Source of the DNA: Argopecten irradians | Lineage: Eukaryota > Mollusca > Bivalvia > Pectinida > Pectinidae | Assembly: GCF_041381155.1 (NCBI RefSeq) | Contig: NC_091134.1 | Coordinates: forward strand, 73,925,469-73,989,468 | Length of the DNA: 64,000 nucleotides | Direction of reading: 5' to 3' | Part shown: one piece after another, positions 6,239 through 57,588 of the stretch | Position numbering within the stretch: position 1 is the stretch's first letter | Layout of the letters: every line of letters starts with the position of its first letter | The notes under the pieces: generated by a model | The model's database searches: none | What the model was told of the DNA's origin: nothing | Seen by the model: the letters and a program-made list of their open reading frames with translations, nothing else | Made by a program: the position numbers and the translations under genes

Positions 6239-9200
6239 GTCCTTCCAGAGCTTGTCTTACTGACTAATATTTGTATGTATTTACCTTGTATATATACTGG
6301 GTAACGTTCCTTTCAGTGCTGGTCTTACTGACTAATATTGTTATTTTTTCCTTGATATACTAGTATAGTCCTTACTGAGCTTGTCTTTATGACTTATAAT
6401 GTATATATATGACCTTGTACATATACTGGTAAAACGTCCTTCAGAGCTGGTCCATTACTGTACATAATTTTGTATTTTCATTTTACATTGTATATTTACT
6501 AGGTCATTTGTCTTCAGAGATGGTATTTCTGGAATAATTTTTGTTTATACTTTACCTTGTATATATACTAGTTCACATCCTTCTGACGATGGTATTACTG
6601 AATACTTCATTGTATTGATTTACCTTGTTTTTCATAATTAAGGTTAATCGTCATTCAGCATGATGCGTCGCTAATTACTACTAATGATTGTCTATATTTA
6701 CCTTGTATTTATACTGGTAACAGTCCTTCAGAGCTTTGTCTTACTCACTAATATTGTATATATTTACATTGTATTTATACTAGTGTAACGTCCTTCAGAG
6801 CTGGTCTTACCTGGGAACTACTTCTTTGGTATTTTTACCTGGTATATTTACTTGTAACGTTCTTCAGAGTGCGTTCATACTGACTTAACTATTGTATATA
6901 TTTGACCATTGTATATATACTAGAAAAGTCCTTCTGAGCTGGTACTTACTGTCTTTATATTGTATATATTTACCTGGTATGCTATTACTGGTATACTTCC
7001 TTAAGAGCTTGTCTTACTGACATATTTTTGTATGATATTTACACCTTGGTACTATTTTACTGGTAATGTCCTTCAGTGCTTGTACTTATTGACTAATATT
7101 GTATATATTTACCTTTGTTAATAATATATAGGTAACATCCTTCACGAGCTGGTCTGACTGAATATTATCTGTATATAGTTATCCTTGTATACTTTACTTA
7201 GTAAAACATCCTTCTGTGCTTGTCTTACTGACCTATATTGTATATGTGTACCTTGAATATATACTGGTACGTCCTTCTGAGCTTTGTTCATACTGACCTA
7301 ATATTGTATTTATCTTAACCTTGTTTATTTAACTGTAAACCATCTTCTGAGCTTGTCTTACTGACTAAAATTTGTTGAAATTTACCTTGTATATATTCTA
7401 GTATACGGTCCTTCAGTGCTTGGTCTGTACAGGTACCTACATAATTGTCATATATTTTCCTTGTTTATATAACTAGGTTACATCCTTCAGAGATTGGTCT
7501 TACTGACTAATATTGTATATATTTACCTGATGTATATTTTCTAGCGTAATCATCCTTCAGAGATGGTCTTTTACATGACTAATAATGTATATATTTTACC
7601 TTGTTTTATATACTCGGTAACTGTCCTTCAGAGCTTGGTATTATCTGACACTATCTATTGGTATATATTTACATTGTATATATATATGGCTAACATACCT
7701 TCAGAGCTGTCTCTTACTGGACTCTATATTGAATATATTTTACCTTGTATATATACTGGTAATGTCATTACTGAGCTTGTCTTAATCTGACTAATTTTGT
7801 ATTTATCTACCTTGTATATATACTGGTATCATCCTTCAGAGCTGGTCTTACTGATCTAATATTGTATATATTTTTCCTTGTATATATTTACTGGTAACGT
7901 CCTTCAGAGCTTGTCTTTACTGACTCATTATTGTATTTATTTACCTTTGTATTATATCTGGTAACCTTCTTCAGAGCTGGTCTTACTGGACTAATATTGT
8001 ATATATTTAACTTGTATATATTACTGGTAACGTCCTTCAGAGCTGGTCTTACTGACTAATATTGTATATATTTACCTCACTGTATATATACTGGCTAACG
8101 TCCTTCAGAGCTGGTCTTACCCTGGACTAATATTGCTATATATTTACCTTGTATATATACTGGTATCTCGTCCTTCAGAGCTGGTCTTACTGACTAATAT
8201 TGTATATATTTACTCTTGTATATAATACCTCCAAGGTAACATCCCTTCAGAGCTGGTCTTACTGGACTCTATATTGTATATATTTACCTTGTATATATAT
8301 AATGGTAACATCCTTCAGTGCTGGGTCTTACTGACTTCATATTGTATTTATTTACTTGTATATATACTGGTAAAGTCCTTCAGTAGCTTGTCTTATCTGA
8401 CTAATATTGTGTATATATTTACCTTGTATATATACTCGGGTAATCGTCCTTCAGAGCTGTTGTCTTACTGACTATTATTTGTATATTATTTACCTTGTTT
8501 ATATACTGGTAACATCCGTTCAAGAGCTTGTCTATACTGACTAATTATCGCATTATATTTTACACTTCGGTATACTATACTGGTAACGTCTCTTCTGAGC
8601 TTGTCATTTACTGAACTAATATTGTATACTATTTACCTTAGTTATATTTACTAGTAACATCCTTCAGAGCTTGGTCTTTTATGACTAATCATTTGTATAT
8701 TTTTACCTTGTATATATACTGGTAACATCCTTCAGAGATGGTCTTACTGACTAACTATTGTATATATTTAACCTTGTTTTTTTATATGGGTAACATTCCT
8801 TCAGCAGTCTGGTGATTTCCGAATAATATTGTTTTTATTACCTTGTCATATATACTGGTAATGTCTTCAGAGGATTGTCTTGGACTGACTATTATTGTAT
8901 ATATATTTTACCTTGTATGTATATTACTGGTAACGTCTTCAGAGATGGTCTTACTGACGTATTTATTGTATTTATTTACCTTGTATATTTACTGTTAACG
9001 TCCTTCAGGAGCATGTTCTTAGCTGACTTATAATTGTATATATTTTACCTTGTATATATTAACTGGTAAACGTTCCTTCAAAGAGCTGGTCTTACTGGTC
9101 CACTTAATATTTGTATTTATTATAACATTGTATATATTACTGGTAAACGTCCTTCAGAGCTCGTCTTACTTGACTAATATTGTATATATTTACCTTGTAT

Positions 9201-11360: not shown

Positions 11361-11403
<43 letters not shown>

Positions 11404-14400: not shown

Positions 14401-17178
14401 ATATATCTTGTACTTACTGACTAATATTGTATATATTTACCTTGTATATATACTGGATACGTCCTTCAGAGCTTGGTCTTACTGACTAATATTGTATATA
14501 TTTACCTTGTATATATACTGTAACGTCCTTCATATCTTGTCTTACTGACTAATATTGTATATATTTACCTTGTATATATACTGGTAACGTCCTTCAGAGC
14601 TGGTCTTACTGACTAATATTGTATTATATTTATCTTGTATATATACTAGTAACGTCCTTCAGAGTTGGTCTTACTGACTAATATTGTATATATTTACCTT
14701 GTATATATACTAGTAACGTCCTTCAGAGCTTGTCTTACTGACTAATATTGTATATATTTACCTTGTATATATACTGGTAATGTCCTTCAGAGCTTGTCTT
14801 ACTGACTAATATTGTATATATTGACCTTGTACATATACTGGTAACATCCTTCAGAGCTGGTCTTACTGACTAATATTGTATATATTTACCTTGTATATAT
14901 ACTGGTAACGTCCTTCAGAGCTGGTCTTACTGACTAATATTGTATATATTTACCTTGTATATATACTGGTAACGTCCTTCAGAGCTTGTCTTACTGACTA
15001 ATATTGTATATATTTACCTTGTATATATACTGGTAACATCCTTCAGAGCTGGTCTTACTGACTAATATTGTATATATTTACCTTGTATATATACTGGTAA
15101 CGTCCTTCAGAGCTGGTCTTACTGACTAATATTGTATATATTTACCTTGTATATATATACTGGTAACGTCCTTCAGAGCTGGTCTTACTGACTAATATTG
15201 TAAATATTTACCTTGTATATATACTGGTAATGTCCTTCATATCTTGTCTTACTGACTAATTATTGTATATATTTACCTTGTATATATACTGGTAATGTCC
15301 TTCATATCTTGTCTTACTGACTAATATTGTATATATTTACCTTGTATATATACTGGTAACGTCCTTCAGAGCTTGTCTTACTGACTAATATTGTATATAT
15401 TTACCTTGTATATATACTGGTAACGTCCTTCAGAGCTTGTCTTACTGACTAATATTGTTTATATTTACCCTGTATATATACTGGTAACATCCTTCAGAGC
15501 TGGTCTTACTGACTAATATTGTATATATTTACCTTGTATATATACTGGTAACGTCCTTCAGAGCTGGTCTTACTGACTAATATTGTATATATTTACCTTG
15601 TATTATACTGGTAATGTCCTTCATATCTTGTCTTACTGACTAATATTGTATATAATTTACCTTGTATATATACTGGTAACGTCCTTCAGAGCTTGTCTTA
15701 CTGACTAATATTGTATATATTTACCTTGTATATATACTGGTAACGTCCTTCAGAGCTTGTCTTACTGACTAATATTGTATATATTTACCTTGTATATATA
15801 CTGGTAACGTCCTTCAGAGCTGGTCTTACTGACTAATATTGTATATATTTACCTTGTATATATACTAGTAACGTCCTTCAGAGCTGGTCTTACTGACTAA
15901 TATTGTATATATTTACCTTGTATATATACTGGTAATGTCCTTCAGAGCTTGTCTTACTGACTAATATTGTATATATTTACCTTGTATATATACTAGTAAC
16001 GTCCTTCAGAGCTTGTCTTACTGACTAATATTGTATATATTTACCTTGTATATATACTAGTAACGTCCTTCAGAGCTTGTCTTACTGACTAATATTGTAT
16101 ATATTTACCTTGTATATATAATGGTAATGTCCTTCATATCTTGTCTTACTGACTAATATTGTAAATATTTACCTTGTATATATACTAGTAACGTCCTTCA
16201 GAGCTTGTCTTACTGACTAATATTGTATATATTTACCTTGTATATATACTGGTAACACCCTTCATATCTTGTCTTACTGACTAATATTGTATATATTTAC
16301 CTTGTATATATACTAGTAACGTCCTTCAGAGCTTGTCTTACTGACTAATATTGTATATATTTACCTTGTATATATACTGGTAACACCCTTCATATCTTGT
16401 CTTACTGACTAATATTGTATATATTTACCTTGTATATATACTGGTAACATCCTTCAGAGCTTGTCTTACTGACTAATATTGTATATATTTACCTTGTATA
16501 TATACTGGTAATGTCCTTCAGAGCTTGTCTTACTGACTAATATTGTATATATTTACCTTGTATATATACTGGTAACGTCCTTCAGAGCTGGTCTTACTGA
16601 CTAATATTGTATATATTTACCTTGTATATATACTGGTAATGTCCTTCATATCTTGTCTTACTGACTAATATTGTAAATATTTACCTTGTATATATACTAG
16701 TAACGTCCTTCAGAGCTGGTCTTACTGACTAATATTGTATATATTTACCTTGTATATATACTAGTAACGTCCTTCAGAGCTGGTCTTACTGACTAATATT
16801 GTAAATATTTACCTTGTATATATACTAGTAACGTCCTTCAGAGCTGGTCTTACTGACTAATACTGTATATATTTACCTTGTATATATACTGGTAACGTCC
16901 TTCAGAGCTTGTCTTACTGACTAATATTGTATATATTTACCTTGTATATATACTGGTAATGTCCTTCATATCTTGTCTTACTGACTAATATTGTATATAT
17001 TTACCTTGTATATATACTGGTAACGTCCTTCAGAGCTGGTCTTACTGACTAATATTGTATATATTTACCTTGTATATATACTAGTAACGTCCTTCAGAGC
17101 TGGTCTTACTGACTAATATTGTAAATATTTACCTTGTATATATACTGGTAATGTCCTTCATATCTTGTCTTACTGACT
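6239..17178 (-). repeat. 64-bp array of exon 10 donor junctions (about 170 units)
   Basis: Read on the minus strand, each unit is about 46 nt matching the end of exonuclease exon 10 (AGTCAGTAAGAC through TATATATACAAG) followed by about 18 nt of intron starting GTAAAT. Each unit therefore carries the junction ACAAG|GTAAAT. The array begins inside exon 10 and fills the following intron. Units right of about 13500 are nearly identical. Units left of about 11000 are full of single-base insertions and deletions. Two main subtypes occur, read on the plus strand as CAGAGCTGGTC/CAGAGCTTGTC and CATATCTTGTC. Exon 10 itself matches the second, rarer subtype. Confidence 0.93.
11362..11403. repeat. 42-nt poly-C run inside the 64-bp array
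   Basis: A run of 42 C interrupts one 64-bp unit at its TTTACCTTG position. It is unlike every neighbouring unit. It lies within the noisy left part of the array, so a sequencing or assembly artefact is as likely as a real expansion. Confidence 0.85.
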
Positions 17179-17257
17179 AGTTTGTACACAGGTATTGGCC
17201 AATGATGTTTAACACAGGTGGTGTGAAGGAAGAAGCCTGGAGACATTCCATCATGTA
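17133..17257 (-). CDS. exonuclease exon 10 (first half of dsRBD3)
   Basis: The acceptor is GGTTTTACTGTTACAG|TACATG (phase 1) and the donor TATACAAG|GTAAAT (phase 0). The 41 whole codons include FFLHTTCVKHHWPIPVYKL, the helix 1 and W.PVY pattern of a dsRBD, and end EGHYQYIYK. A matching second-half exon must lie beyond the arrays, outside the window or in the gap. The last 46 nt of this exon are the seed of the 64-bp array. Confidence 0.8.
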
Positions 17258-20200
17258 CTGTAACAGTAAAACCACTATTTATTCTTTGAAGATTGAGTCT
17301 TGAAATATAACTAAATTAAAAATGACTTACTTTAATAGTACCTGGTATATGGATTTAGTCATCAAAGTTATATTTTTGTAAGCCTTAATTGGCAAGTAAA
17401 AATTAAATGTGAGCCTCATGCAACCAAAAAGAGTTTCACACAACACAATTTAAGATTATTTTCATCATTCAGACTCAGGTAAATTGCACTCATGGCTAAA
17501 AATATCATTTGTTCATACACAGGTTTGATTGAAAGTGTAAGGTAAACATTGTGAAAGTGACACTTTCTTGTATCCTCCTTGAATCTGTGATGTTGTAGTT
17601 TTATAAAGATTAAATCACTGTGTATATTACAACATCACAATGTATTATGTAATTCCCCTTTCATAGATATTGTTTCTGATTAAAGGCTATCAACAAAAGA
17701 GAATATACCTTCAGCAGCTTGAGATTTCTTTCTTGGTTTCTTCATCCAAGACTGCAACATTTCAGTATAGGTATCATTTTCAGATTTCTGATGACAGGCA
17801 AAGAATGTTTCTGCTGCGGCAAATTTGGCTTCTTTTTCATCAGAGCATGGACCCGACCAATATTCCTTACCATCAATTAAAGCCTGCAAAAATGTTGCAA
17901 AAAACAATTATTTCCTTTTTTATTTCACTAGTCTTTAAAAGTAAAAAATCAAAATGGTAAAATGTTTTTATCTTATTTTAAATTGAATAAAATTTTTTTG
18001 ACACACTGATGTTTCTGTTATTGAAATCCTGTTGAACTGTCATGTTTGGTGCAGTACATGTTCTAAGCGTGGTTGTGAAATTAAGAAACAGTTACACAGT
18101 TTCAAGGTAACACCTGCAGGCACTGCTTGTTTGTAAAGGTTACTTTCTAGGTCTCATAGAGTACTTACCTTACACACACACTGGTCTGAGGGTACTGGGT
18201 CTCATAGAGTACTTACCTTACACACACACTGGTCTGAGGGTACTGGGTCTCATAGAGTACTTACCTTACACACACACTGGTCTGAGGGTACTGGGTGTTA
18301 TAGAGTACTTACCTTACACACACACTGGTCTGAGGGTACTGGGTCTCATAGAGTACTTACCTACCACACACACTGGTTTGAGGGTACTGGGTCTCATAGA
18401 GTACTTACCTTACACACACACTGGTCTGAGGGTACTGGGTCTCATAGAGTACTTACCTTACACACACACTGGTCTGAGGGTACTGGGTCTCATAGAGTAC
18501 TTACCCTACACACACACTGGCCTGAGGGTACTGGGTGTTATAGAGTACTTACCTTACACACACACTGGCCTGAGGGTACTGGGTCTCATAGAGTACTTAC
18601 CTTACACACACACTGGCCTGAGGGTACTGGGTGTTATAGAGTACTTATCTGATACACACACTGGTTTGAGGGTACTGGGTCTCATAGAGTACTTACCTTA
18701 CACACACACTGGCCTGAGGGTACTGGGTGTTATAAAGTACTTACCTTACACACACACTGGTCTGAGGGTACTGGGTGTTATAGAGTACTTACCTTACACA
18801 CACACTGGTCTGAGGGTACTGGGTGTTATAGAATGCTTACCTTACACACACACTGGCCTGAGGTTACTGGGTCTCATAGAGTACTTACCTTACACACACA
18901 CTGGTCTGAGGTTACTGGGTCTCATAGAGTACTTACCTTACACACACACTGGTCTGAGGGTACTGGGTGTTATAGAGTACTTACCCTACACACACACTGG
19001 CCTGAGGGTACTGGGTGTTATACAGTACTTACCTTACACACACACTGGCCTGAGGGTACTGGGTGTTATAGAGTACTTACCTTACACACACACTGGTCTG
19101 AGGGTACTGGGTGTTATAGAGTACTTACCTTACACACACACTGGTCTGAGGGTACTGGGTGTTATAGAATGCTTACCTTACACACACACTGGCCTGAGGG
19201 TACTGGGTGTTATAGAGTACTTACCTTACCAACACACTGGCCTGAGGGTACTGGGAGTACTTACCTTAAACACAAACAGGCCTGAGGGTACTGGGTCTCA
19301 TAGAGTACTTACCTTACACACACACTGGCCTGAGGGTACTGGGTGTTATAGAGTACTTACCTTACACACACACTGGCCTGAGGGTACTGGGTCTCATAGA
19401 GTACTTACCTTACACACACACTGGTCTGAGGGTACTGGGTGTTATACAGTACTTACCTTACACACACACTGGCCTGAGGGTACTAGGTCTTATAGAGTAC
19501 TTATCTGATACACACACTGGTCTGAGGGTACTGGGTGTTATAGAGTACTTACCTTACACACACACTGGTCTGAGGATACTGGGTGTTATATAGAGTACTT
19601 ACCTTACACACACACTGGCCTGAGGGTACTGGGTCTCATAGAGTACTTACCTTACACACACACTGGCCTGAGGGTACTGAGTGTTATAGAGTACTTACCT
19701 TACACACACACTGGTCTGAGGGTACTGGGTCTCATAGAGTACTTACCTTACACACACACTGGCCTGAGGGTACTGGGTCTCATAGAGTACTTACCTTACA
19801 CACACACTGGCCTGAGGGTACTGGGTGTTATAGAGTACTTACCTTACACACACACTTGCCTGAGGGTACTGGGAGTACTTACCTTACAAACAAACTGGCC
19901 TGAGGGTACTAGGTCTCATAGAGAACTTACCTTACACACACACACTGGCCTGAGGGTACTGGGTCTCATAGAGTACTTACCTTACACACAAAGTGGCCTG
20001 AGGGTACTGGGTCTCATAGAGTACTTACTTACACACACACTGGCCTGAGGGTACTGGGTGTTATAGAGTACTTACCTTACACACACACTGGCCTGAGGGT
20101 ACTGGGAAGTACTTACCTTACAAACAAACTGGCCTGAGGGTACTAGGTCTCATAGAGAACTTACCTTACACACACACTGGCCTGAGGGTACTGGGTCTCA

Positions 20201-41200: not shown

Positions 41201-44200
41201 TATATCACCATCAGATACAACCATACATACATTCCATACTTATATTACCATCAGATACAATCATACATACATTCCATACTTATATACTTATATTACCATC
41301 AGATACAACCATACATACATTCCATACTTACATCACCATCAGATACAATCATACATACATTCCCATACTTATATCACCATCAGATACAACCATGTATACA
41401 TTCTATACTTATATCACCATCAGACATACAATCCATACTTATATTACCATCAGATACAACCATATATACATTCCATACTTATATCACCATCAGATATAAC
41501 CATGTATACATTCTATACTTATATCACCATCAGATACAATCATATATACATTCTATACTTATATCACCATCAGATACATTATGTACAACCATGTACACAT
41601 TCTATACTTATATTACCATCAGATACAACCATATACATACATTCCATACTTATATCACCATCAGATACAACATCATACATTCCATACTTAATCACCATCA
41701 GATACAATCAGTATACATTCTATACTTATATCACCATCAGATACAACCATTATCATACATATAATCTATACTTATATCACCATCAATACAACCATAATAC
41801 ATTCCATACTTATATCACCATCAGATACAACCTACATACTATACATTCCATACTTATATTACCATCAGATACAACCATTATACATTCCATACTTATATTA
41901 CCATCAGATACAACATTATACATTCTATACTTATATCACCATCAGATACATTATATACATACATTCATACTTATATCACCATCATCAATACAACCATTAT
42001 ACATTCATACTTATATTACCATCAGATACAACAACATACTTCATACTATATACCATCAGATACAACCATACATACATTCCATACTTATATCACCATCAGA
42101 TACAACCATGTATACATTCCATACTTATATCACCATCAGATACAACCATGTATACATTCTATACTTATATTACCATCAGATACAACCATGTATACATTCT
42201 ATACTTATATCACCATCAGATACAACCATGTATACATTCTATACTTATATCACCATCAGATACAACCATGTATACATTCTATACTTATATTACCATCAGA
42301 TACAACCATGTATACATTCTATACTTATATCACCATCAGATACAACCATGTATACATTCTATACTTATATTACCATCAGATACAACCATGTATACATTCC
42401 ATACTTATATCACCATCAGATACAACCATGTATACATTCTATACTTATATTACCATCAGATACAACCATGTATACATTCTATACTTATATCACCATCAGA
42501 TACAACCATGTATACATTCTATACTTATATTACCATCAGATACAACCATGTATACATTCTATACTTATATCACCATCAGATACAACCATGTATACATTCT
42601 ATACTTATATTACCATCAGATACAACCATGGATACATTCTATACTAATATTACCATCAGATACAACCATGTATACATTCTATACTTATATCACCATCAGA
42701 TACAACCATGTATACATTCTATACTTATATCACCATCAGATACAACCATGTATACATTCTATACTGATATTACCATCAGATACAACCATGTATACATTCT
42801 ATACTTATATCACCATCAGATACAACCATAAATACATTCCATACTTTATTCCTATAACATTCTCTGAGCATTTCTTGCCTTAATTAATGGGAAACTCAAC
42901 CTTACTTCTATATGTATTTAAATACATAATTTCTGTCTGTTTGCTGCTTATATCACAAGTGTTCAGGTAACATTCAATATTAACGAACAAAAATTAGATT
43001 CTGATTTTATTTTATTTTAAGAACTTACAAATTTCAATCTTTACCTTCAGTAAATTTGTCACAGTGTTTCGTACATCCTCAAACGTGACACCATCAATGT
43101 TGTGACCAGCGTGTCTTCCACTGTAACGTGTGCCGCAGTCTGTGATAGTGTCCTTCTCACAAATCTTCATATCGTAAACCACGTTACCATCAAAATCCAC
43201 GATACTACAGCCACCTAAATAGTTACCTAGATAAAACAAACAGAATTATCCTATAGTATCAAGTCAATAACAAGTATGTTTTACAAAGAGTTTTCTGCTC
43301 TTAAAGATAGATATATGTACTATTGATTTTGATGTGATCAAAAGGATTAAGTTTTCTCTGAAAACATTATATACAAGTAGTTTAGCTCACAAACACATGA
43401 TGTCAAAATCAATATATTGTTTAATTAATTGATTTTCCATCTAGTTATTCAACTTATACAAATCACTTTCGATGGTCCGGATGAAAGCATGTGAGGGGTC
43501 TTAGAGTGGGAGGAAACCAGAGTGCCTCGAGAAAACCCATGTGATCAGGTAGGTGACCCTTGACCTTTTCATGTGCATGCTGGGGATCGAACCCTGGCCG
43601 ACTAGGCGAGAGGCGAGTGGCTTAACCACTACACCACACGATCACCTCAATTTACTTATCTTTATGAGAAGATAGCTATATATAGATAAGTATATAATAG
43701 ACACAAATGTAGAGAGGGTAGCAATAATCATATTGTTTATAGACAAATGGAAAGATTTCAGTCCAAAAGCATCATCAAAGACACATCCCTGAGACATACT
43801 TACCTAGCTGCTTATCAGTGGATACCTTGGGAAGGTCTCCTACAAACTCACAGTCCAGGGACAAGTACTGGTCCAATGACGCTATCTCTCGTTTTACTCT
43901 TGTATCTTCTGAATCATTAGATTCATCAATTTGAAAGTCAATCGCAGATGTAGAATTACCATTACTATCTGCCACGTTAACATGTTTTTGATCAGATAAC
44001 TTATTTCGTTCTCCTTTGTCCAGATCACAATCAGTGGCTGCAGGATTTCCAACAACATCAGATGAGGATTTTAAAGATAGTTTCTTGTCAGAATTCTCAC
44101 ATAACACTAAATCATACCCATTGGTCCAGCCTAACTCCGACTTGGTTAATATGTTTGGTACAGGAGAGTTTAGATCATTACTTAAATGTACCATCCATGT

Positions 44201-46476: not shown

Positions 46477-46852
46477 GATGTACACATCGCATCATCCCAA
46501 AAACGCTCTAATTCAATTTAGCTCCAATTCAAACGCCCGTGTGATTAACGAAATAATTAGACAAGTCAAGATAATATTAGCGGACTATATATCCGGTTAC
46601 AGAAAATATTAAACTATCTTAATCTCTGTACTGTATAAATGTTGCGATATTGCCCTCAAAAAATGGATTTTAAGTTTAAATATTTGCAGCTAATTCATAA
46701 ATTATTGAATTATTGAATTGAATATCAGTAATACCCGGTATATGTTTCTGAAATGAGCAACAAATTAAAAAGGGGGAGCACCGAAATACAGAGAACTCTT
46801 TAGTCAGGGAGGTAACATTCTCGTTTAAACGACTGGCGCGGTGGAGAGGAAG
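46477..46852. promoter_or_regulatory. head-to-head intergenic region, probable bidirectional promoter
   Basis: Only 376 bp separate the start codons of the minus-strand exonuclease gene and plus-strand NUP37. Both promoters and both 5' UTRs must lie here, unless unseen 5' non-coding exons exist. The NUP37 side is locally GC-rich (GACTGGCGCGGTGG). I see no convincing TATA box. The promoter role is inferred from gene layout. Confidence 0.6.
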
Positions 46853-46993
46853 ATGTCTGAATGCTCGGCAAGTTTAACCATTCCATGCCATGATGTTGTT
46901 AGTGTTGTGGAATTTGTGTCTTTTGAATGGTGTACAAATCTTTTAGCCATTGGTTCAAGTTCAAGAGTTACGATATACAGCGTTGATTATACG
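46853..46993 (+). CDS. NUP37: NUP37 exon 1 (residues 1-47)
   Basis: Starts MSECSASLTIPCHDVVSVVE and ends IYSVDYT in phase 0 at ACG|GTAAGC. VVEF near the start matches the first strand of NUP37 propellers. The start is chosen by family length and good context. Confidence 0.92.
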
Positions 46994-49900
46994 GTAAGCT
47001 GACTGCAGGTTAAATTTAAGGACTGTTCGCTTATTACGAAAATTGAGATAATTCCAAATGTTGAGCAGCAGGCACTTGAGATTGTGTTTAAGTTGAAAAT
47101 TTCTTGTAGTTATGTCCATTTTAAATCTTTAAACGTAGTGGTCATGGAAAGTGGCGAAAACCTCTGTTTACATAGAATAATGTTATGTTTCCAACAGTAC
47201 CGCACCAAAAATTTCGGATAAGTTGAATCATCAAAATAATTTGTAATAACCCAAAATCTGGGCAATGAATCACATGATCAGACATTTGACTTCCGGTACT
47301 TTGTTGACATACTGCTGATCAGTGCACATGGCAGTCAAACGCTGACAGTATTGTTTTTAAGTTTCATTTAAAATTGACTTAAGAAAATACCTTCATTTTG
47401 GGGTATATTGCTACATCGTATTTATAAAATCACTTGGTTACACACTCGCTTTTAAGCAAGACCAATCTTCCTTGATCAAATCTGCTTTGGCAGACGACAC
47501 TCTTTATGAAATCACACGATAGTTTATGAGATATTAGCAAAATTGTAAACATGACGAAAATAGGTCCCTGACGAATTAAGGGCACTCAACCCTATCTAAG
47601 TCACATTCCACCAAAACAACTAAAAAATAACACTGTGTACATAATTTAAAAAAAAAAACAGCGCATGACTTATAAACTTCATCTTGAAGGTTTGTCATTA
47701 TCCCCGAAGAAGATAACCACCTACCCTTAGGCTAATCATAGGTAGAAGGCTGGTAAGTCAAAGACCCACTATAGACTAAATTAGTATATAGAGAAAGGTA
47801 AGGAATTCTCCGTGATGTAAGATTGGGTACTTTAGTTCAAAGTGTTGTAAAAAAAATATCCAGACCAGATATCTTAACAGCTTCGGTCTTAATTGAAAGT
47901 TAAGATGTTAAACTTCAAGATGATAACAAGAAATCCTACTGAACTAGTCAACATTTTCACAAACAGCCTCGAAACTTAAAAAAGTGACGAATGTCCCATA
48001 GTCGGACACGATCGAGAACCTTTTTGCAAACGAAAATGTCTATTCGCTACACTGAAAACACGGCAGCCTACAATAGCAGGCTTTGACATAAACAAACATC
48101 AGGTAAAAACAAACGTATTTACTTGTTTGATGCTTCATTCAGATCCCCCTCTCGTGGTCCTTATGTCGTTTTTCAGTGCTAATAGTTATCCGGGTTAGGT
48201 TGACGGCCATTTTGCCACTATCTTGAAAGTTATGTAAAGCCATAATCTCATTGGTCGGTTGGTTTTAAATCTGCCAATGAGATTAGGCTTTACATAACTT
48301 TCATGATAGAGACGACTGGTTCGCCCGTTGTCAGCATAATGTGACCGGATGGAGTGTATTGCTTAGTGTCTTCAGCGGCATGCTTCAGTGATATAGCGCT
48401 ATAAAAAGGGCAACAGTTCCACTATAAAAGAAGACACAACACGAACATACCGCAGTCTCCCAAAGCACGCACCTCGCCCTTCACACACGCTACATGCTGC
48501 ATGCATGGGAGACCGTCCTTACATGACACTGGCTGGTAATAGGACGTTGAAATAATCAAACAAACAAACAAACAAACCCCCAGGGGCCAGAAGGGCGGGG
48601 CCAAAAGGGGTCAAAATGGCTAAAATTCCCCAAAAAAATCCTCTTCTGAATTCGCAGATTTGATGGACCTAAATAATCTTCATAGATTAAAAAGTCAAAT
48701 TTATCAAATCACAGACTGACTTCAAGAGCCTGGCCAATATATAGTGTTTATATGTCTTTGTTTCATTCTGTATCCAAACTCAGCTAGGTGACCATTAAAG
48801 CCCATGGATCTTTTCAGCTTGTTTACTTATTTTCAAAGTGTTGAAGCTTAAGTTTATAAACATATTTCATATATGTCAAGTTCTGTAACAATTTCATTAG
48901 GAAAATAAGTATTTTTCCATATTTATAATAATGCAATATAAGTTTAACATTGTAACCATCCTCATTTCTACCTGATTATTCAGGAGGAGCCTGCTGATGG
49001 AAAACCATTCCTGTTTAAACAAGTGAGAGATTTTCAAAATGGATGCAGAGTGACAGCCATATCATGGAGCCCAGAAACATCCTATCAATCCAGGGAGGTT
49101 GCAGATTGTTTAAGGTAATGGGTCACACAATTTATTAATGTTGATGAGAAATATCTAATAGGCTTGCTTGAATGGATTTTGTTTCACTGTCTTATATTGG
49201 CATTCTCAAGTACACATGAATCAGTTTGATTCCAATGAAGAATTGACAGTAGCGGTAGGTCATTTTGAACTACGGTAAAAAAAAAGATGAACTTACGGCA
49301 AATTAATGGTTAGTACTTTTCATTCCCTGTCAAGTTTCCTATAAGATGCATGTAATTTTATTAGCTTTCCGTTGTTTGCAGATTGGCTGTTGCTGGGTCC
49401 AACAACAAAATTCATCTATTTGATTCAGATTTACGAGGAAAGGATGCTATAGAGGTATGACAAAATCATGTATAATGAACCCTGACAATTTTGTTTGTTG
49501 AATTAGCATATGATGTTAGGATAGTTTATAATCAGCTGTTGAATTAGCTATGATGTTAGGATAGTTTATAACCAGCTGTTGAATTAGCTATGATGTTAGG
49601 ATAGTTTATAACCAGCTGTTGAATTAGCTGTGATGTTAGGATAGTTTATAATCAGCTGTTGAATTAGCTATGATGTTAGGATAGTTTATTATCAGCTGTT
49701 GAATTATCTGTGATGTTAGGATAGTTTATAACCAGCTGTTGAATTAGCTATGATGTTAGGATAGTTTATAACCAGCTGTTGAATTAGCTATGATGTTAGG
49801 ATAGTTTATAACCAGCTGTTGAATTAGCTATGATGTTAGGATAGTTTATAACCAGCTGTTGAATTAGCTATGATGTTAGGATAGTTTATAATCAGCTGTT

Positions 49901-52900
49901 GAATTAGCTGTGATGTTAGGATAGTTTATAACCAGCTGTTGAATTAGCTATGATGTTAGGATAGTTTATTATCAGCTGTTGAATTATCTGTGATGTTAGG
50001 ATAGTTTATAATCAGCTGTTGAATTAGCTGTGATGTTAGGATAGTTTATAATCACCAGCTGGTTTTTTAGGTCACCTGAGACGAAGTCTCAAGTGACCTA
50101 TTCTACTCGCCTTTTGTCCGTCGTCGTGCGTCGTCCGTCGTATGTCCGTAAACAATTTACGTTTTCGACTTCTTCTCCAAAACTGCAGAAGCAATTTCAA
50201 TGAAATTTTGCACAAACCTTCTAAGGCATAAGGCCAATCAAAATTGTGAATTATATGGTCCCCACCCCCCAGGGGATTGTGGGAAGGGCCAAAAGGGGTA
50301 AAATTGAGTAAAATTTCAAAAATCTTCTTCTCTACTCACAGATGTGGTAGAATCAAATACTCTTCATAGATAGAAAGGTCTAAAGGTCCTTTACAAAAAT
50401 TGTGAATTATATGACCCTGGGGTCTCTAGTTTCCCCCTGGGGAGGAGGTTAAGTTTACTATAGTTTATATTGGGAAAACACATTTTTGAGCATTATTTGG
50501 TCATTTGTAATAGGAAATGAGTCAAATGTTGTCAGAATTATCAGTATGAGATGGCCATTTAATCCTATTAACAAATTTTCTATGACTGACCCCCAGGGGC
50601 CTTAGGGGCGGGGTCAAAAGGGGTCAAATAGGCTAAAACTTCAAAAATCTTCTTCTGAAATTCTGGAAATGGTAGAATCAAATACTTTTCATAAATAGTA
50701 AGGTCTTAAGGTCCTTTACAAAAATTGTGAATTATATGACACTGGGGTCTCACGTTTCCCCCTGGGGAGGGGGTCAAATTTACTATTGGTTATATAGGAA
50801 AAACACATTAATGAGCATTTTTTGCTCAATTTTCATTGGAAACAAGTCAAACTTGGTTAGAATTATTAGCCTGAGATAGCATTTTAACATCATATCCATA
50901 TTGGTCCAGGCTGACCCCCTGGGGCAGAGGGGCGGGGCCAAAAAAGGTCAAACAGGCTAAAACTTCAAAAATATTCTTCTAAAATTCTGGATATGGTAAA
51001 ATCAAATACACTTTACAGATGAAAAGGTCTTAAAGTTTGTTTTATTAAAATTGTTAATTATATGACCCTGGGGTCTCATGTTTTCCCTTGGGGAGGGGGT
51101 CAAGTTTACTATAGTTTATATAGGAAAAACACATTAATGAGCATTTTTTGCTCAATTTTCATAGGAAATGAGTCAAACTTGGTTAGAATTATTAGCCTGA
51201 GATAGCATTTTAATATCACATCCACATTGGTCCTGGCCAACCCCATGGGGGCAGAGGGGCGGGGCTAAAAAAGGGTCAAATAGGCTAAAACTTCAAAAAT
51301 CTTCTAAAATTCTGGAAATAGTAGAAACAAAAACAAATAATTATAGTTGGAAAGGTCTTAAGGTGTTTTATAAAAATTGTGAATTATATGACCTTGGGCT
51401 CTCACGTTACCCCCTGGGGAGGGGGTCAAGTTTACTTTAGTTTATATAGGAAAAACATATTTGTGAACATTATTTGCCCAATTTTCAAAGGAAATTAGTC
51501 AAACTTGATTAGAATTATTAGCCTAAGATATAGCATCTTAACATCCATATCCGTCCTCGATGACCCCTTAGGGGACCAGAGGGGCAGGACCAAACAGGGT
51601 CAAAATGATTAAAATTTCAAAAAAATACCTCTAAGTTCACAGGTTTGATGGAAGCAAATACTCTTTATAGTCTAAAAAGTCAAATTTATAAATCACTGAC
51701 CAACCTCAAGGCCCAGCATATAGTGTTTATATGTCTTTAATTTGTTTCATTATTTGTTTCATTATATATTCTATCTCAGGTGACTGTTAAGGCCCATGGG
51801 CCTCTTGTTATAATCAGCTGAATCAGAAATCTACACTCGATTTGGTGTTATGAGTTTAGTCTGCTCCTAATAAAACTACAAAATTACAAATGTGTTTTCC
51901 ATGTCTGTTCCAGAACAAATTCTGGCTAGCTATGTATTTAGAAATAAGAGGATTTAAATCATTTGCTCATGTTGTGATTAAAAAACATGCAGTTTAAATT
52001 TTCATGACTATAACAACTAGATGTAATCCTGTTTTTAGCCTGCTGTTTGACTATGACATTGAATGTAGAATGGGTGTACATACTGGTGATGTTTATTTCA
52101 GGTGTTGGAGGGCCACACTGACTTCATTAATTCACTGGCCTATAACCCCCAGAGTGGAGAGACTTTTGCCTCTACTGGTGATGATATGACCTGTAGACTG
52201 TGGGTAGGAGATGAACTCAACGCCTGTTTCCAACTTGGTGCTCCTGGCATGTCCGTGTGTATTCATGAAAGGGAACCAGGCAAGGTAAAAACTCTTTTGA
52301 TTTAATGTACAAAATACAAGCACATGAATATCATTGGTCCAACTTCTCCAAAACACTACTGCATCACTTTAAACCTACTGAATATGATAGAGGAATTTAC
52401 ATGAGTGACTATGTAATATGATATTTATTTAACAAGTTTTTAAGGAATAGATATTTATTTTGTTGAGGTTATGAGGGTATAATGATAATGGAGCCCATGT
52501 AAATTTTATGTAACCCGGATCTATTCCTTATATTTACAGTTTTTCAAGTAAATGAATATTATTTTTGGCAGTTGCATATGTTTTATTAAAATACCCATAT
52601 TTTTTTCTCTCCTGTCATCGTCAACGAATTAGATTGAACAGCTGATTGGAATCGAGTCATTCATATATTCCAGCCAAAAGTAAGGTCATGACCCCACATT
52701 GCTACGCCATCGACTATTCACGTAACAATAGAATCGCTGTGCGTGTTGTGCTAACATTATACACTGATAATGATAATACTAGAAAGCATGGTTATTGAGT
52801 CCATGTCAGTGCAAACTGTAAATATGATAATTTAGTGTGCACAATTTAGCCTTTATACAGGCATGTCAAATTGATAAATTCATATTACGTAGCCACAAGT

Positions 52901-55900
52901 TTTAAGATGTTTGTTTCCATTCAGTTTATTGGTGTTATTTCTCAAACATATTTTATAACACTTAACATCTCAATCTGACCATACTCAGTTTATCACTATT
53001 TCTCAGAAAGTATTGAAGGGATCTTCTCATATATAGATTCCCCTATAGGGCCCTAGTTGTGCATATTGCATTTTAGAACTGATCGGCAACAAGATGGCCG
53101 GTAGGCCGCCATCTTGGATTATGATGGTTAAATATTGTTACCGTTACTTCTTTGAAAGTACTACTGACGGGATCTTCCTCACATTTCATATGTAGGTTCC
53201 CCTGGGGTCATAGTTGTGCATTTTGCATTTTGGGACCGAATGGTCAACAAGATGGCCGGCTGGCTACCATCTTGGATTTTGATAGTTGAAGTTGAAGTTT
53301 GTTACCACTATTTCTCAGAAAGAACTGAAGGGATCTTTCTCAAATTTCATATATTGTTTGTAGTTTGAAAAGCAGAGAAAAGATTCGTCTTTCCGTTGTC
53401 AGACATAAATTATTCTTTGGTGGGCGCCAACAAGATCCCTCTGGGATCTCTTGTTAAAATCAGAAACTTTCATGATGTTCCATATTCATTTCAAATTATT
53501 GGCATAAAATGGTGATATCTCATGTACAAGAGTAAATAACAAATTATTGGCATTAAATGGTGACAAGTCATGTCCAAACTTAAACAACAAATTATTGGCA
53601 TTAGATGGTGACAAGTCATGTCCAAACTTAAACAACAAATTATTGGCATTAGATGGTGACATCTTATGTTTAAGTTTAAACAACAATTACTCCCATCTCA
53701 TGTATAAGATTAAATAACAAATTATAGGCATTAAATGGTGACATCTCATGTCCAAGCGTAAATAACAAATTATTGGCATTAAATGGTGACATCTCATGTC
53801 CAAGCGTAAATAAGAAATTATTGGCATTAGATGGTGAAATCTTATGTCCAAGCTTAAATAACAAATTATAGGCATTAAATGGTGACATCTCATGTCCAAG
53901 CGTAAATAAGAAATTATTGGCATTAGATGGTGACATCTCATGTCCAAGCGTAAATAACAAATTATTGGCATTAGATGGTGAAATCTTATGTCCAAGCGTA
54001 AATAACAAATTATTGGCATTAGATGGTGAAATCTTATGTCCAAGCTTTAACAACAAATTACTGGCATTAAATGGTTACATTTCGTGTCCAAGCTTAAAAA
54101 GATTTTAGTGTAAAAGTTAAAGACTAGAAATATGCCCTTGGGCTGATATGGCGGTCTAGGGCTGATAAAGGCTGTGATATCAAAATAATTATAACTTTCA
54201 CAGGTGATGGTAGCACAGAAGAATGGTATAATAAAGATATTCAGTATGGACCTTCAGCTACAGATCATGTCCCTCGATTGCTGCCAGTCTCCCCTGATGA
54301 GTGCTGATTGGAGTCGGTTAGATGACGATATAATCGGTGCTGTGGCTGGCACGGAGTGGCTCATTTTCCACTTATCACGATCCAGGTAATCAGTGATCTA
54401 TATCATCGGATTGTTATCACTAGAACACATAGGTCAAATGTTTCTTGGTAGATCTTAATATAAGAATCCAATGACAAATTTAGATTCCATTCGTGAGAAG
54501 ATGTTGTAGGAACGTAAAAAATTTATTGGTTATGCACATTAACTGTTTATGATAAAATGGTGCCTCTTATTCAGTTTGCGAGTCTGTTTTCAATATTCAT
54601 TGAATACCAACAGACAGGGTGATGACAAGTGTGAACATTTTCTCTGATGAGTTTGGTTGAATTTGATTTAAGGTACTATGGACATGATTATTTTGATTGT
54701 ATAACTTACATTCATTGATCAATGAATGTTTTTATCACAGCCAGCCACAGGAGAGACGACAAGCACACTCTGAAGGGGCACGAGACATTCGGTGGGCTAA
54801 GTCTTCACCGATCCTGCTTGCCACGACAGGACGACCAGGACGACAGATCAAAGTCTTCAGTACAAGGCATCACCAGGTATAACAAGATCATTTTCCTGTG
54901 GGGACTTTTCAGTATTTCTTCTGAAGGAGACAATAGTAGCATTGCTTTGTCCAAACTGAGATCACTATATTGATATTCTATATCATTCTATATTCTATTC
55001 CTTCAAGTGACCTATGTACAAATATATTGATTCTGTTTCAGGTTCCCTTGAATACCAGACAACAAGTGACCTATGTACATATATGTTGATTCTGTTTCAG
55101 GTTCCCTTGAATACCAGCCAACAAGTGGCCTATGTACAGATATGTTGGTTCTGTTTCAGGTTCCCTTGAATACCAGACAACAAGTGACCTATGTACAGAT
55201 ATGTTGATTCTGTTTCAGGTTCCCTTGAATACCAGACAACAAGTGACCTATGTACAGATATGTTGGTTCTGTTTCAGGTTCCCTTGAATACAGCACAGTC
55301 CTATGTACAGATATGTTGGTTCTGTTTCAGGTTCCCTTGAATACCAGACAACAAGTGACCTATGTACAGATATGTTGTTGATTCTGTTTCAGGTTCCCTT
55401 GAATACCAGACAACAAGTAACCTATGTACAGATATGTTGATTCTGTTTCAGGTTTCCTTGAATACCAGACAAGTGACCTATGTACAGATATGTTGATTCT
55501 GTTTCAGGTTCCCTTGAATACCAGACAACAAGTGGCCTATGTACAGATATGTTGATTCTGTTTCAGGTTCCTTGAATACCAGACAACAAGTAACCTATGT
55601 ACAGATATGTTGGTTCTGTTTCAGGTTCCCTTGAATACTAGACAAGTAACCTATGTACAGATATGTTGATTCTGTTTCAGGTTCCCTTGAAAACCAGACA
55701 ACAGGTGACTTATGTACAGATATGTTGGTTCTGTTTCAGGTTCCCTTGAATACCAGCCAACAAGTGACCTATGTACAGATATGTTGGTTCTGTTTCAGGT
55801 CTCCTTGAATACCAGCCAACAAGTGACCTATGTACAGATATGTTGGTTCTGTTTCAGGTTCCCTTGAATACCAGCCAACAAGTAACCTATGTACAGATAC

Positions 55901-57588
55901 GTTGGTTTTGTTTCAGGTTCCCTTGAATACCAGCCAACAAGTAACCTATGTACAGATATGTTGGTTCTGTTTCAGGTTCCCTTGAATACCAGACAACAAG
56001 TAACCTATGTACAGATATGTTGATTCTGTTTCAGGTTTCCTTGAATACCAGACAAGTGACCTATGTACAGATATGTTGGCTCTGTTTCAGGTTTCCTGGT
56101 ATTGTTTCAGGTTCCCTTGAATACCAGACAACAAGTAACCTATGTACAGATATGTTGGTTCTGTTTCAGGTTTCCTTGAATACCAGACAACAAGTGACCT
56201 ATGTACAGATATGTTGGTTCTGTTTCAGGTTCCCTTGAATACAAGACAACAGGTGGCCTATGTACAGATATGTTGGTTCTGTTTCAGGTTCCCTTGAATA
56301 CCAGCCAACAAGTAACCTATGTACAGATATGTTGGTTGTGTTTCAGGTTCCCTTGAATACTAGACAAGTACCTATGTACAGATATGTTGGTTCTGTTTCA
56401 GGTTCCCTTGAATACCAGACAACAAGTAACCTATGTACAGATATGTTGGTTCTGTTTCAGGTTTCCTTGAATACCAGACAACAAGTGACCTATGTACAGA
56501 TATGTTGGTTCTGTTTCAGGTTCCTTGAATACCAGACAACAAGTGACCTATGTACAGATATGTTGGTTCTGTTTCAGGTTCCCTTGAATACCAGACAACA
56601 AGTAACCTATGTACAGATATGTTGGTTCTGTTTCAGGTTCCCTTGAATACCAGACAACAAGTGACCTATGTACAGATATGTTGGTTCTGTTTCAGGTTCC
56701 CTTGAATACCAGACAACAAGTAACCTATGTACAGATATGTTGATTCTGTTTCAGGTTTCCTTGAATACCAGACAAGTGACCTATGTACAGATATGTTGGT
56801 TCTGTTTCAGGTTCCCTTGAATACCAGACAACAAGTAACCTATGTACAGATATGTTGATTCTGTTTCAGGTCTCCTTGAATACCAGACAACAAGTAACCT
56901 ATGTACAGATATGTTGGTTCTGTTTCAGGTTCCCTTGAATACTAGACAAGTAACCTATGTACAGATATGTTGGTTCTGTTTCAGGTTCCCTTGTATACCA
57001 GCCAACAAGTAACCAATGTACAGATATGTTGGTTCTGTTACAGGTTCCCTTGAATACTAGCCAACAAGTGGCCTATGTACAGATATGTTGGTTCTGTTTC
57101 AGGTTTCCTTGAATACCAGACAACAAGTGACCTATGTACAGATATGTTGGTTCTGTTTCAGGTTCCCTTGAATACCAGACAACAAGTAACCTATGTACAG
57201 ATATGTTGGTTCTGTTTCAGGTTCCCTTGAATACCAGCCAACAAGTGGCCTATGTACAGATATGTTGGTTCTGTTTCAGGTTCCCTTGAATACCAGACAA
57301 CAAGTAACCTATGTACAGATATGTTGGTTCTGTTTCAGGTTCCCTTGAATACCAGCCAGCAAGTGGCCTATGTACAGATATGTTGGTTCTGTTTCAGGTT
57401 CCCTTGAATACCAGCCAACAAGTGGCCTATGTACAGATATGTTGATTCTGTTTCAGGTTCCCTTGAATACCAGCCAACAAGTGGCCTATGGAATGAGCTG
57501 GCATTACACCTTTCCTCTATTAGCAGTTGGCGGAGACCAGAAAGTCAGCCTTTATCATATAGAGCCTACTAGGGCACAGATTGGCTGA
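46853..57588 (+). CDS. NUP37: nucleoporin NUP37 (WD40 protein of the Y complex), seven exons
   Basis: Exons: 46853-46993, 48984-49114, 49382-49454, 52102-52284, 54204-54385, 54741-54876, 57457-57588. All introns are GT-AG and the phases (0, 2, 0, 0, 2, 0) match at every join. The product is 325 residues, against 326 in human. Diagnostic segments include SWSPET, VLEGHTDFINSLAYNP, STGDDMTCRLW, GAPGMSV, VAQKNGIIKIF, PLMSADW, GAVAGTEWLIF, LLATTGRPGR and LLAVGGDQKVSLYHIE. NUP37 is a seven-bladed WD40 propeller in the Nup107-160 (Y) complex of the nuclear pore, found at kinetochores in vertebrate mitosis. The ATG has A at -3. The gene looks intact. It diverges from the exonuclease gene, and intron 6 is almost entirely copies of the exon 7 acceptor. 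Confidence 0.95.
46994..48216. other. NUP37 intron 1, left part
   Basis: Unique intron sequence. No repeats, RNA genes or exons are recognised. Confidence 0.55.
48218..48309. repeat. imperfect inverted repeat (long hairpin) in NUP37 intron 1
   Basis: The arms are 48218-48254 and 48274-48309: CTATCTTGAAAGTTATG... and ...CATAACTTTCATGATAG. They pair along about 36 bases with one mismatch and one bulged A, around a loop of about 19 nt. The size suits a small MITE-like element or a pre-miRNA-sized hairpin. No clear target-site duplication is seen. Confidence 0.8.
48557..48577. repeat. (CAAA)5 microsatellite
   Basis: A five-copy CAAA run lies directly at the 5' junction of the truncated dispersed element that follows. 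Confidence 0.9.
48578..48812 (+). mobile_element. 5'-truncated copy of the GGTCACCTGAG...CTTGTT element
   Basis: Starting CCCCCAGGGGCCAGAAGGG, this stretch aligns with the last about 240 bp of the full copy at 50063-51809. Shared parts include GGGGCCAAAAGGGGTCAAAA, AGTGTTTATATGTCTTTG, and AGGTGACCATTAAAGCCCAT against AGGTGACTGTTAAGGCCCAT. Only the 3' end is present, and it is more diverged. Confidence 0.75.
48813..48983. other. end of NUP37 intron 1
   Basis: Unique AT-rich intron with the exon 2 acceptor. Confidence 0.5.
48984..49114 (+). CDS. NUP37: NUP37 exon 2 (residues 48-91)
   Basis: The acceptor is CTGATTATTCAG|GAGGAG and the donor TTAAG|GTAATG, phase 2. It encodes KPFLFKQVRDFQNGCRVTAI and SWSPETSYQSREVADCLR. 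The V.AISWSPET block is strongly conserved in NUP37. Confidence 0.93.
49382..49454 (+). CDS. NUP37: NUP37 exon 3 (residues 91-115)
   Basis: The acceptor is CCGTTGTTTGCAG|ATTGGC and the donor ATAGAG|GTATGA, phase 0. It encodes LAVAGSNNKIHLFDSDLRG, a WD40 blade strand set. A 40-bp array starts about 40 bp into the following intron. Confidence 0.93.
49495..50060. repeat. 40-bp array in NUP37 intron 3 (about 14 units)
   Basis: Units have the form TGATGTTAGGATAGTTTATA then ATCAGCTG or ACCAGCTG, then TTGAATTAGCTA. Adjacent copies differ by one to three bases. It is unrelated to the 40-bp array of the exonuclease gene. The last unit is interrupted by the dispersed element at 50063, and unit-like sequence (TAATCAGCTGAATCAG) resumes at 51811. 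Confidence 0.93.
50063..51809 (+). mobile_element. full-length dispersed element with internal 326-bp repeats, inserted in a minisatellite
   Basis: It begins with the inverted repeat AGGTCACCTGAGAC-GAA-GTCTCAAGTGACCT (50069-50099) and ends GGCCCATGGGCCTCTTGTT. Inside, a module of about 326 bp (AATTATATGACCCTGGGGTC, CCCCTGGGGAGGGGGTCAA, GGGGCGGGGCCAAAA) recurs about three and a half times, at about 50397, 50722, 51049 and 51376. There is no open reading frame, so it is non-autonomous. It resembles a family common in bivalve sequences (from memory). Confidence 0.8.
51810..52101. other. end of NUP37 intron 3
   Basis: A fragment of the 40-bp unit followed by unique intron and the exon 4 acceptor. 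Confidence 0.55.
52102..52284 (+). CDS. NUP37: NUP37 exon 4 (residues 116-176)
   Basis: The acceptor is GTTTATTTCAG|GTGTTG and the donor GGCAAG|GTAAAA, phase 0 on both sides. It encodes VLEGHTDFINSLAYNP and FASTGDDMTCRLW, the canonical WD40 repeat of the protein with its GH and structural D residues, then GAPGMSVCIH. Confidence 0.96.
52285..52974. other. start of NUP37 intron 4
   Basis: About 700 bp of unique AT-rich intron. No feature is recognised. Confidence 0.55.
52975..53455 (+). mobile_element. non-autonomous dispersed element ending GGGATCTCTTGTT
   Basis: At least two tandem modules of roughly 170 bp share TTTCTCAGAAAG, AAGGGATCTT, AGGTTCCCCT, GTGCATTTTGCATTTTGGGA and CAACAAGATGGCCGG. 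The element ends GGTGGGCGCCAACAAGATCC then CTCTGGGATCTCTTGTT. It has no coding capacity. A more decayed relative lies at about 59105-59805. Confidence 0.75.
53484..54112. repeat. 48-bp array in NUP37 intron 4 (about 13 units)
   Basis: Units have the form AACAAATTATTGGCATTAGA then TGGTGACATCTCATGTCC, AAGCGTAAAT. Shortened units occur at the left edge. It ends about 90 bp before the exon 5 acceptor. Open frames on both strands reflect the 48-bp period. Confidence 0.93.
54204..54385 (+). CDS. NUP37: NUP37 exon 5 (residues 177-237)
   Basis: The acceptor is TAACTTTCACAG|GTGATG and the donor TCCAG|GTAATC, phase 2. It encodes VMVAQKNGIIKIFSMDLQ, SPLMSADW and IIGAVAGTEWLIFHLSRSR, closely matching the NUP37 family. 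Confidence 0.95.
54386..54740. other. NUP37 intron 5
   Basis: A 355-bp unique intron, the only sizeable NUP37 intron apart from intron 2 without an array or element. Confidence 0.7.
54741..54876 (+). CDS. NUP37: NUP37 exon 6 (residues 237-282)
   Basis: The acceptor is TTTTTATCACAG|CCAGCC (phase 2) and the donor CACCAG|GTATAA (phase 0). It encodes RDIRWAKSSPILLATTGRPG and QIKVFSTRHHQ. The upstream SQPQERRQAHSEGA segment is a loop between blades. Confidence 0.94.
54877..55017. other. unique start of NUP37 intron 6
   Basis: About 140 bp of ordinary intron sequence after the exon 6 donor, before the 59-bp array. Confidence 0.6.
55018..57490 (+). repeat. NUP37: 59-bp array of exon 7 acceptor junctions (about 43 units)
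   Basis: Each unit is the last 25 nt of intron 6 (TACAGATATGTTGATTCTG, TTTCAG) plus the first 34 nt of exon 7 (GTTCCCTTGAATACCAG, then ACAACAAGTGACCTATG). I counted about 43 TTTCAG|GT junctions from about 55041 to 57456, the last being the real one. Some units are 55 bp, with a 4-bp loss (AGACAAGTAACC). Most internal units have GTGACC or GTAACC where exon 7 has GTGGCC. Short open frames across the array are artefacts. Confidence 0.95.
57457..57588 (+). CDS. NUP37: NUP37 exon 7 (residues 283-325, stop)
   Basis: It encodes VPLNTSQQVAYGMSWHYTFP and LLAVGGDQKVSLYHIE, ending ARAQIG-type residues (TRAQIG) and TGA. It matches the closing blade of NUP37. The acceptor is the last of about 43 near-identical TTCTGTTTCAG|GTTCCC sites. 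This copy is chosen because only here does the frame continue past TATG into GGAATGAGC. Any earlier copy leads to a stop within about 24 codons. Confidence 0.94.
   Translation, partial: VPLNTSQQVAYGMSWHYTFPLLAVGGDQKVSLYHIEPTRAQIG

Follow-up and report, generated by a model that had tools for sequence, protein, structure and literature searches.

Minisatellites that span exon–intron junctions in two adjacent genes of the bay scallop

Genes and tandem arrays of the window

The sequence analysed, called the window below, is a stretch of 64,000 nt from the bay scallop Argopecten irradians (C1:73925469-73989468). The contig that holds it, C1, comprises 75,513,862 bases of an assembly of 845.8 Mb. 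Arrays were defined with TRF by a period of at least 20, at least 4 copies and a score of at least 100. They cover 68.9% of the window and 20.6% of a random sample (41,189 of 200,000 bases masked), which consisted of 20 stretches of 10 kb out of 40 drawn. Tandem arrays are described as abundant in scallop genomes (PMC7090048, PMC10225492), and the cited part of the report on the A. i. irradians draft genome gives 15.10% TRF repeats (PMC7090048).

Two genes contain the arrays of interest, NUP37 on the forward strand and an exonuclease gene on the reverse strand. Their relevant features are as follows.

46853..57588, forward: NUP37 gene, 7 exons, intact frame, 325 codons
55004..57490, forward: 59-bp array (TRF), 42 near-full copies, exon copy included
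57457..57588, forward: NUP37 exon 7, the last exon, which starts where the last copy of the array has its acceptor
17133..46476, reverse: ISG20-like exonuclease gene with dsRBDs, exons E1 to E11 seen in the window
46408..46476, reverse: exon E1, supported solely by its weak alignment, at the N terminus, with pectinid relatives
45745..46407, reverse: 31-bp array (TRF), unit GTAACT...ATTATCAG, 21 near-full copies
25944..26485, reverse: 60-bp coding array in exon E5, 20 codons repeated 9 times, in frame in the NCBI protein
21413..21513, reverse: exon E9 (earlier exon 8), N-terminal half of a dsRBD, its end (..SGQCVCK) coinciding with the first 48-bp donor
18156..21438, reverse: 48-bp array (TRF), 69 rows, 68 near-full copies including the exon copy
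17133..17257, reverse: exon E11 (earlier exon 10), N-terminal half of the last dsRBD
6262..17186, reverse: 64-bp array (TRF), 165 near-full copies including the exon copy, ending at a gap of 10 N

The forward-strand gene matches human NUP37 in the PDB at E=2.8e-75, with an alignment that runs through exon 7, and the NUP37 of Ylistrum balloti at 87% identity over 100% of the query. Exon 7 of the first-pass annotation, which was made from the sequence letters, is a real exon. No A. irradians protein among 63 matches is named NUP37 (several matches are nameless).

Pectinid relatives align along the protein of the reverse-strand gene. An NCBI protein model of A. irradians, P0064, extends from an internal ATG in E5 to E11 plus 8 codons and is identical in 470 of 470 residues, which also confirms the end of E9. 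In Pfam searches with single pieces, one of which carried a wrong guess for E7, all matches fell below the curated cut-offs: RNase_T at 0.026, dsrm at 0.003-0.004 and DND1_DSRM at 3.9e-4, the last of these in the E11 region. E9 and E10 together matched dsrm at 0.0042, also under the cut-off.

Two further exons deserve mention. E4 (36037-36206, reverse strand) matches the relatives only in two different frames, through single-base frame losses; P0064 starts downstream of it, and the frame break is either a real loss or an assembly error. The array in E5 adds nine 20-residue repeats where the exonuclease domain ends, and the compared relatives have no such repeat there. Its seed lay entirely inside the exon.

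Arrays that span splice junctions

The units of three arrays span an exon–intron junction, as the first-pass annotation had proposed. The 48-bp unit consists of the last 26 nt of E9 and the first 22 nt of the following intron, and its consensus includes AAG|GTAAGT. The 64-bp unit combines about 46 nt of the end of E11 with 18 nt of intron. At the opposite kind of border, the 59-bp unit joins 25 nt of intron end (..TTCTGTTTCAG) to the 34 nt with which NUP37 exon 7 begins, and holds the polypyrimidine tract, the AG and the start of the exon. Compared without gaps backwards from the donor, the exons share 26/26 nt (48-bp array) and 47/47 nt (64-bp array, where 46 had been reported) with the best of the nearest copies. 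NUP37 exon 7 shares 34 nt, counted forwards from its acceptor, with each of the six nearest copies. In all three arrays, the exon copy lies at the array edge and the remaining copies lie within the intron. Near-full copies thus number 68 in the 48-bp, 165 in the 64-bp and 42 in the 59-bp array, head to tail; the 31-bp array has 21.

The exonic parts of these units encode conserved residues. That of the 48-bp unit encodes SGQCVCK, where P0069 and P0071 have SGEFVCK; the exonic residues of the 64-bp unit align with relatives; and in the 59-bp unit the residues are VPLNTSQQVAY, whose counterpart in Ylistrum is VPLSTSQQVAY. Since the exonic parts of all three units align with relatives in this way, the exon preceded the array in each case.

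At E9, the protein model P0064 takes the edge copy, the first of the 48-bp donors. All 62 further donors found in this array lead to an in-frame stop, and in the 59-bp array the same holds for each of the 41 acceptors upstream. The conserved NUP37 frame requires the last 59-bp copy only, and no new intron has come from the copies. Outside the exon copies, the donor motif is intact in 57/67 copies of the 48-bp array (AAGGTAAGT) and in 128/164 copies of the 64-bp array (AAGGTAAAT), and TTTCAGGT is intact in 39/40 of the 59-bp copies examined.

The case of E11 is more complex. It matches the first half of the last domain in P0069 and P0070, at 5e-4 and 2e-5, and these relatives continue past E11 with the second half of that domain. 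P0064 bypasses the E11 donor, reads into the 64-bp array and stops after 8 codons. E11 (exon 10 of the first-pass annotation) is a real exon; its donor, which P0064 reads through, is deduced from relatives only. No sequence for the second half of that dsRBD turned up in the window or in the 30 kb below it, and the gap of 10 N at 6252-6261 may hide the exon that follows E11.

The NUP37 exon retains TGGC at a position that is changed in 34 of the 41 other near-full 59-bp copies, in 32 of them to TAAC or TGAC. These two motifs look like a possible branch point, which would lie about 30 nt before the next AG (distance judged by eye). Most NUP37 decoy acceptors (32/41) are thus accompanied by a better branch-point-like motif (TAAC or TGAC) than the real acceptor (TGGC). 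A pattern of variation by codon position in the 59-bp array looked suggestive; it rests on few sites and was not used.

The 31-bp array at exon 1

Exon 1 ends at 46408 and the 31-bp array begins at 46407, so the array does start at the exon 1 donor, as had been noted. It has only 4 nt in common with exon 1, however, and for this reason it adjoins the junction and is not an amplified junction. Its unit reads ATTATCAG|GTAACT, which is acceptor-like and donor-like, and CAG|GTAACT is present in 19/20 copies.

The first-pass annotation had also pointed to AG|GT, which is indeed contained in all four units, as the driver of their amplification and as a route to new introns. AG|GT is found at 14/17 donors and 6/16 acceptors of the two genes. 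Since it is so common at their junctions, its presence in four of four units is unremarkable (P 0.12-0.20), and its proposed role as a driver falls away.

Chance placement in the window

The placement test used 12 genic array units, each array collapsed to one unit, over a span of 13,157 bp with 33 splice sites. Random placement yields a mean of 1.39 junction-spanning units, with P(>=3)=0.15 and P(>=4)=0.04. The probability of at least three is 0.13 if the 31-bp array is left out along with the exon 1 donor, 0.17 with the 11 non-coding arrays prevented from lying wholly in an exon, 0.30 when a 326-bp repeat is included, and 0.03 when the 12 units are placed over the whole window (25,830 bp). 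With nulls that range from 3% to 30%, the window does not by itself demonstrate a preference for junctions.

Repeat units were also scored for splice-like motifs. In the random sample of 20 10-kb stretches, from which one overlapping 23-mer row of a single stretch was dropped before counting, 0/31 array units had a donor of at least 8/9, against 1.05 in shuffles. Donors of at least 7/9 were found in 7/31 units against 7.2 in shuffles, which is no excess, and acceptors in 1 against 0.58. Among the window units, 3/14 had a donor of at least 7/9, not above the 4.0 in shuffles. The acceptor score was too strict, as the NUP37 unit itself remained unflagged, and it was not used further.

Donor-like tandem motifs in the genome

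A tandem pattern of three AGGTAAGT motifs with gaps of 25-55 has 9432 matches in the genome, against 1010 for the reversed motif, 2471 for a same-letter shuffle and 3111 for the reversed shuffle. These counts are of matches, not arrays, and big arrays dominate them, so the AGGTAAGT excess reads as 3- to 9-fold, depending on the control; the 100 shuffle matches listed all fall in one cluster (C1:6.60-6.63 Mb). As single sites outside arrays (158.8 kb), AGGTAAGT occurs 5 times, its reversal 9, the shuffle 7 and the reversed shuffle 5 times. Tandem AGGTGAGT has 5314 matches against 1226 reversed, and its single sites outside arrays, 7 against 1 in the same 158.8 kb, differ as much as the tandem ones, so no AGGTGAGT excess is shown. 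The acceptor-like TTTTACAG has 4935 matches against 3277 reversed (1.5-fold), with 28 against 21 single sites in 158.8 kb. In this small sample, neither TTTTACAG nor AGGTGAGT exceeds its single sites. AGGTAAGT, the strongest donor, is the sole motif with an excess over single sites, 3- to 9-fold in matches.

Arrays at other genes were collected from these matches. The 100 AGGTGAGT matches listed represent 12 distinct arrays in the first 41 Mb of C1, and the 100 AGGTAAGT matches listed represent two arrays. The upstream flanks of 12 arrays were inspected, namely ten of the 12 AGGTGAGT arrays, in listing order, and both AGGTAAGT arrays; an inverted duplicate of another array and a low-complexity AGGTGAGT array were left out. 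One further locus (L037) lies inside an array and was not used.

By eye, 10 of the 12 arrays begin at an exon-like stretch, in which an acceptor is followed by an open frame that runs up to the array's first donor. A fixed rule accepted 11 of the 12, whereas of 636 donor-like sites elsewhere it accepted 41% (P=4e-4), a comparison tilted towards the exon reading because the null sites include weaker motifs (7/9). No convincing exon was seen at the start of the arrays L036 and L040, of which L040 was accepted by the fixed rule. In the 11 arrays for which it was measured, the exonic part of the unit spans 5 to 44 nt; in four of the ten convincing ones it has 5 to 12 nt.

Homology of the ten exon peptides gave one firm case, a UreF match at 5.3e-5, above its cut-off. 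Three others have weak homology: Laminin_G at 0.012 (with agrin in the PDB at 2.8e-4), OSCP1 at 0.024 and SLC2A3 in the PDB at 0.1. The remaining six have no usable homology. A reading of one of the loci (L035) as an NRF-6-like acyltransferase found no confirmation in the homology search and was dropped. Taken together, the flanks support the presence of arrays of the same kind at the predicted exon ends, or 5' splice sites, of other bay scallop genes. Because similar arrays lie at other exon-like stretches, the three cases in the window are no local oddity.

Two of these loci show peculiarities of their own. L036 (C1:1098521-1099270) is a 48-bp array whose unit contains CTAAC followed by TATTAG|GTAAGT, a sequence both acceptor- and donor-like, with no exon seen beside it. 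The 23-bp donor array at C1:30127600-30128560 occurs again, in the opposite orientation, at C1:30361783-30361999. The two listings are 233 kb apart, which suggests an inverted duplication.

Origin of the junction arrays

The junction minisatellites probably began as a duplication that straddled a real exon–intron border, followed by minisatellite growth into the intron, with the edge copy as the working site and the rest as decoys. A short tandem duplication would have happened, or tended, to straddle the border. Ordinary minisatellite growth would then have carried the duplicated junction into the intron in many copies, of which the one next to the exon would stay the working splice site and the tens to hundreds of others would become intronic decoys. 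Splicing would most likely take the exon-proximal copy, as the NCBI protein model shows it to do at E9; we propose that this copy is chosen because exon definition ties it to its nearby partner site. Wrong choices would lead to a premature stop, and the transcript would presumably be destroyed.

The reverse order, in which an exon boundary slid into an existing repeat and a unit was recruited as splice site, is quite improbable. It could apply to the 31-bp array, whose units run from an initial GT to a final CAG and have only 4 nt in common with exon 1. For the 48-, 64- and 59-bp arrays it was rejected, since their exonic parts encode conserved residues that align with relatives, and the TGGC kept by the NUP37 exon, where 34 of the 41 other copies are changed, also speaks against it. 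Nor is the growth of arrays from existing borders a case of intron gain. In the AGGT model, as outlined in the cited text, an exonic AGGT segment is duplicated and an intron is thereby created (PMC4974935). AG|GT is present in all four units, yet it is the usual sequence at donors of both genes (14/17), and the units span an existing junction with their copies inside an existing intron, to which no intron has been added. AGGT-driven intron gain, the route suggested by the first-pass annotation, is accordingly very improbable and was a mistaken reading; the phenomenon itself extends further than first noted.

It is improbable, if slightly less so than recruitment of a pre-existing repeat, that the copies are functional, whether by offering U1 or the factors of the 3' splice site additional places to bind or by allowing stepwise (recursive) removal of the intron. 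The splice motif belongs to the less variable parts of the unit, with shift ranks of 6/48, 8/64, 1/31 and 4/59 for all rows and 10/48, 8/64, 1/31 and 4/59 for unique rows (Fisher P=0.012, exploratory), and the 31-bp unit ATTATCAG|GTAACT is acceptor-like and donor-like at once. This signal comes mostly from the 31-bp array, however, as the other three each fail 0.05 by shift rank, and neutral, recently grown arrays would keep their motifs too. No sign of decay was seen in the decoy motifs of the four arrays (intact in 57/67, 128/164, 19/20 and 39/40). An assembly artefact might be suspected from the gap of 10 N that ends the 64-bp array and from the two frames of E4. It is hardly credible, given that the arrays are internal to a 75.5-Mb contig and have diverged copies, and that donor arrays recur beside other exon-like stretches.

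Growth from a junction-spanning duplication is compatible with two readings of why such duplications are seen. Exon–intron borders, mainly 5' splice sites, may be preferred birthplaces of minisatellites, with hundreds of genes carrying arrays of their own donors; something acting at the border during transcription or repair would then seed the tandem duplications. This is a serious possibility that falls somewhat short of probable. Under plain coincidence, whose odds likewise lie a little under even, the seeds of minisatellites land throughout a genome full of them and a few happen to cover a splice site, so that junctions are not favoured. Coincidence leaves the arrays as amplified junctions and denies only the preference. 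It agrees with the share of arrays in the random sample (20.6% of 200 kb) and in the draft genome (15.10% in the cited part of PMC7090048), with the placement in the window (P=0.15), with the 60-bp array that is wholly exonic and other arrays that lie deep in introns, with the 0/31 donor units of the random sample, and with AGGTGAGT and the acceptor pattern, which show no excess over single sites. Against it stand the tandem AGGTAAGT counts, 3- to 9-fold above three same-letter controls where the single sites are not, and the arrays chosen by motif, which start at exon-like sequence in 11/12 cases against 41% at other donor-like sites.

The exon-like starts and the AGGTAAGT excess allow both readings, a preference and frequent chance in a minisatellite-rich genome. 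The overlap above chance that the first-pass annotation anticipated is not seen in the window, and genome-wide a junction preference is only indicated, by the AGGTAAGT excess. A preference of minisatellites for donors may exist and is credible enough to merit a test. If the donor excess holds per array, it would point to a mutational process tied to exon–intron borders.

Work on how the spliceosome chooses among near-identical sites generally relies on small numbers of engineered copies. Here, tens to about 165 near-identical donors or acceptors lie beside real exons and differ mainly in position. If the preferred-birthplace reading is true, a genome-wide class of splice-junction minisatellites would form a natural library for the study of splice-site choice.

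Comparison with known systems

The nearest precedent is the human IFI6 minisatellite, which has multiple splice donors (Turri, Cuin and Porter 1995; cited in PMC2572611, PMC4526556). As in the scallop arrays, its tandem repeat units carry splice donors, and the 48- and 64-bp arrays share two features of this type, namely a head-to-tail series of units, each tens of bp long, at the end of an exon and an intact 5' splice site in the units. As far as the cited accounts go, IFI6 is one gene in which downstream units are used as donors (PMC4526556), whereas the scallop arrays have up to about 165 copies, involve several junctions, including one acceptor, and give stops at the tested alternatives.

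In potato RdRp, a tandem duplication spans a junction in the same way as the 59-bp unit, with intron end, AG and exon start. As described in the account consulted, that duplication made a new intron, in contrast to the 42 copies at scallop NUP37, which made none. Tandem duplications of 24 bp containing AGGT are known from fission yeast (SPOG_01682 and SOCG_00815; Zhu and Niu 2013, via PMC4974935). They resemble the scallop arrays in having multiple AGGT-containing tandem copies that are spliced across. In the fission yeast cases, as summarised there, the segments are exonic and the intron is made from the copies, whereas the scallop units span a junction and lie in an existing intron. The ordinary tandem repeats of scallops (PMC7090048, PMC10225492) are similar in that arrays are plentiful in such genomes; three window arrays span a splice site, unlike the other nine of the 12 genic arrays.

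Among the open-licence papers listed in literature searches, neither a report of a genome-wide class of such arrays nor a name for one was found. IFI6 is nevertheless a direct precedent for the arrangement. With IFI6 and potato RdRp as precedents, what is new here is the scale and the recurrence.

Other repeats of the window

The gap of 10 N at 6252-6261 joins the 64-bp array to a satellite with a 60-bp unit, with a G-rich 66-bp repeat (reverse strand) between them. The satellite measures about 10 kb (window 1-5932 plus L012:5827-10000) and extends beyond the window. At the other end, a stretch of about 2 kb bearing RVT_1 occurs twice in direct order, at 59649-61684 and 61977-64000 on the forward strand. 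The two copies are 98.97% identical, and their reverse transcriptase frames match RVT_1 at 4.3e-15 and 1.2e-12.
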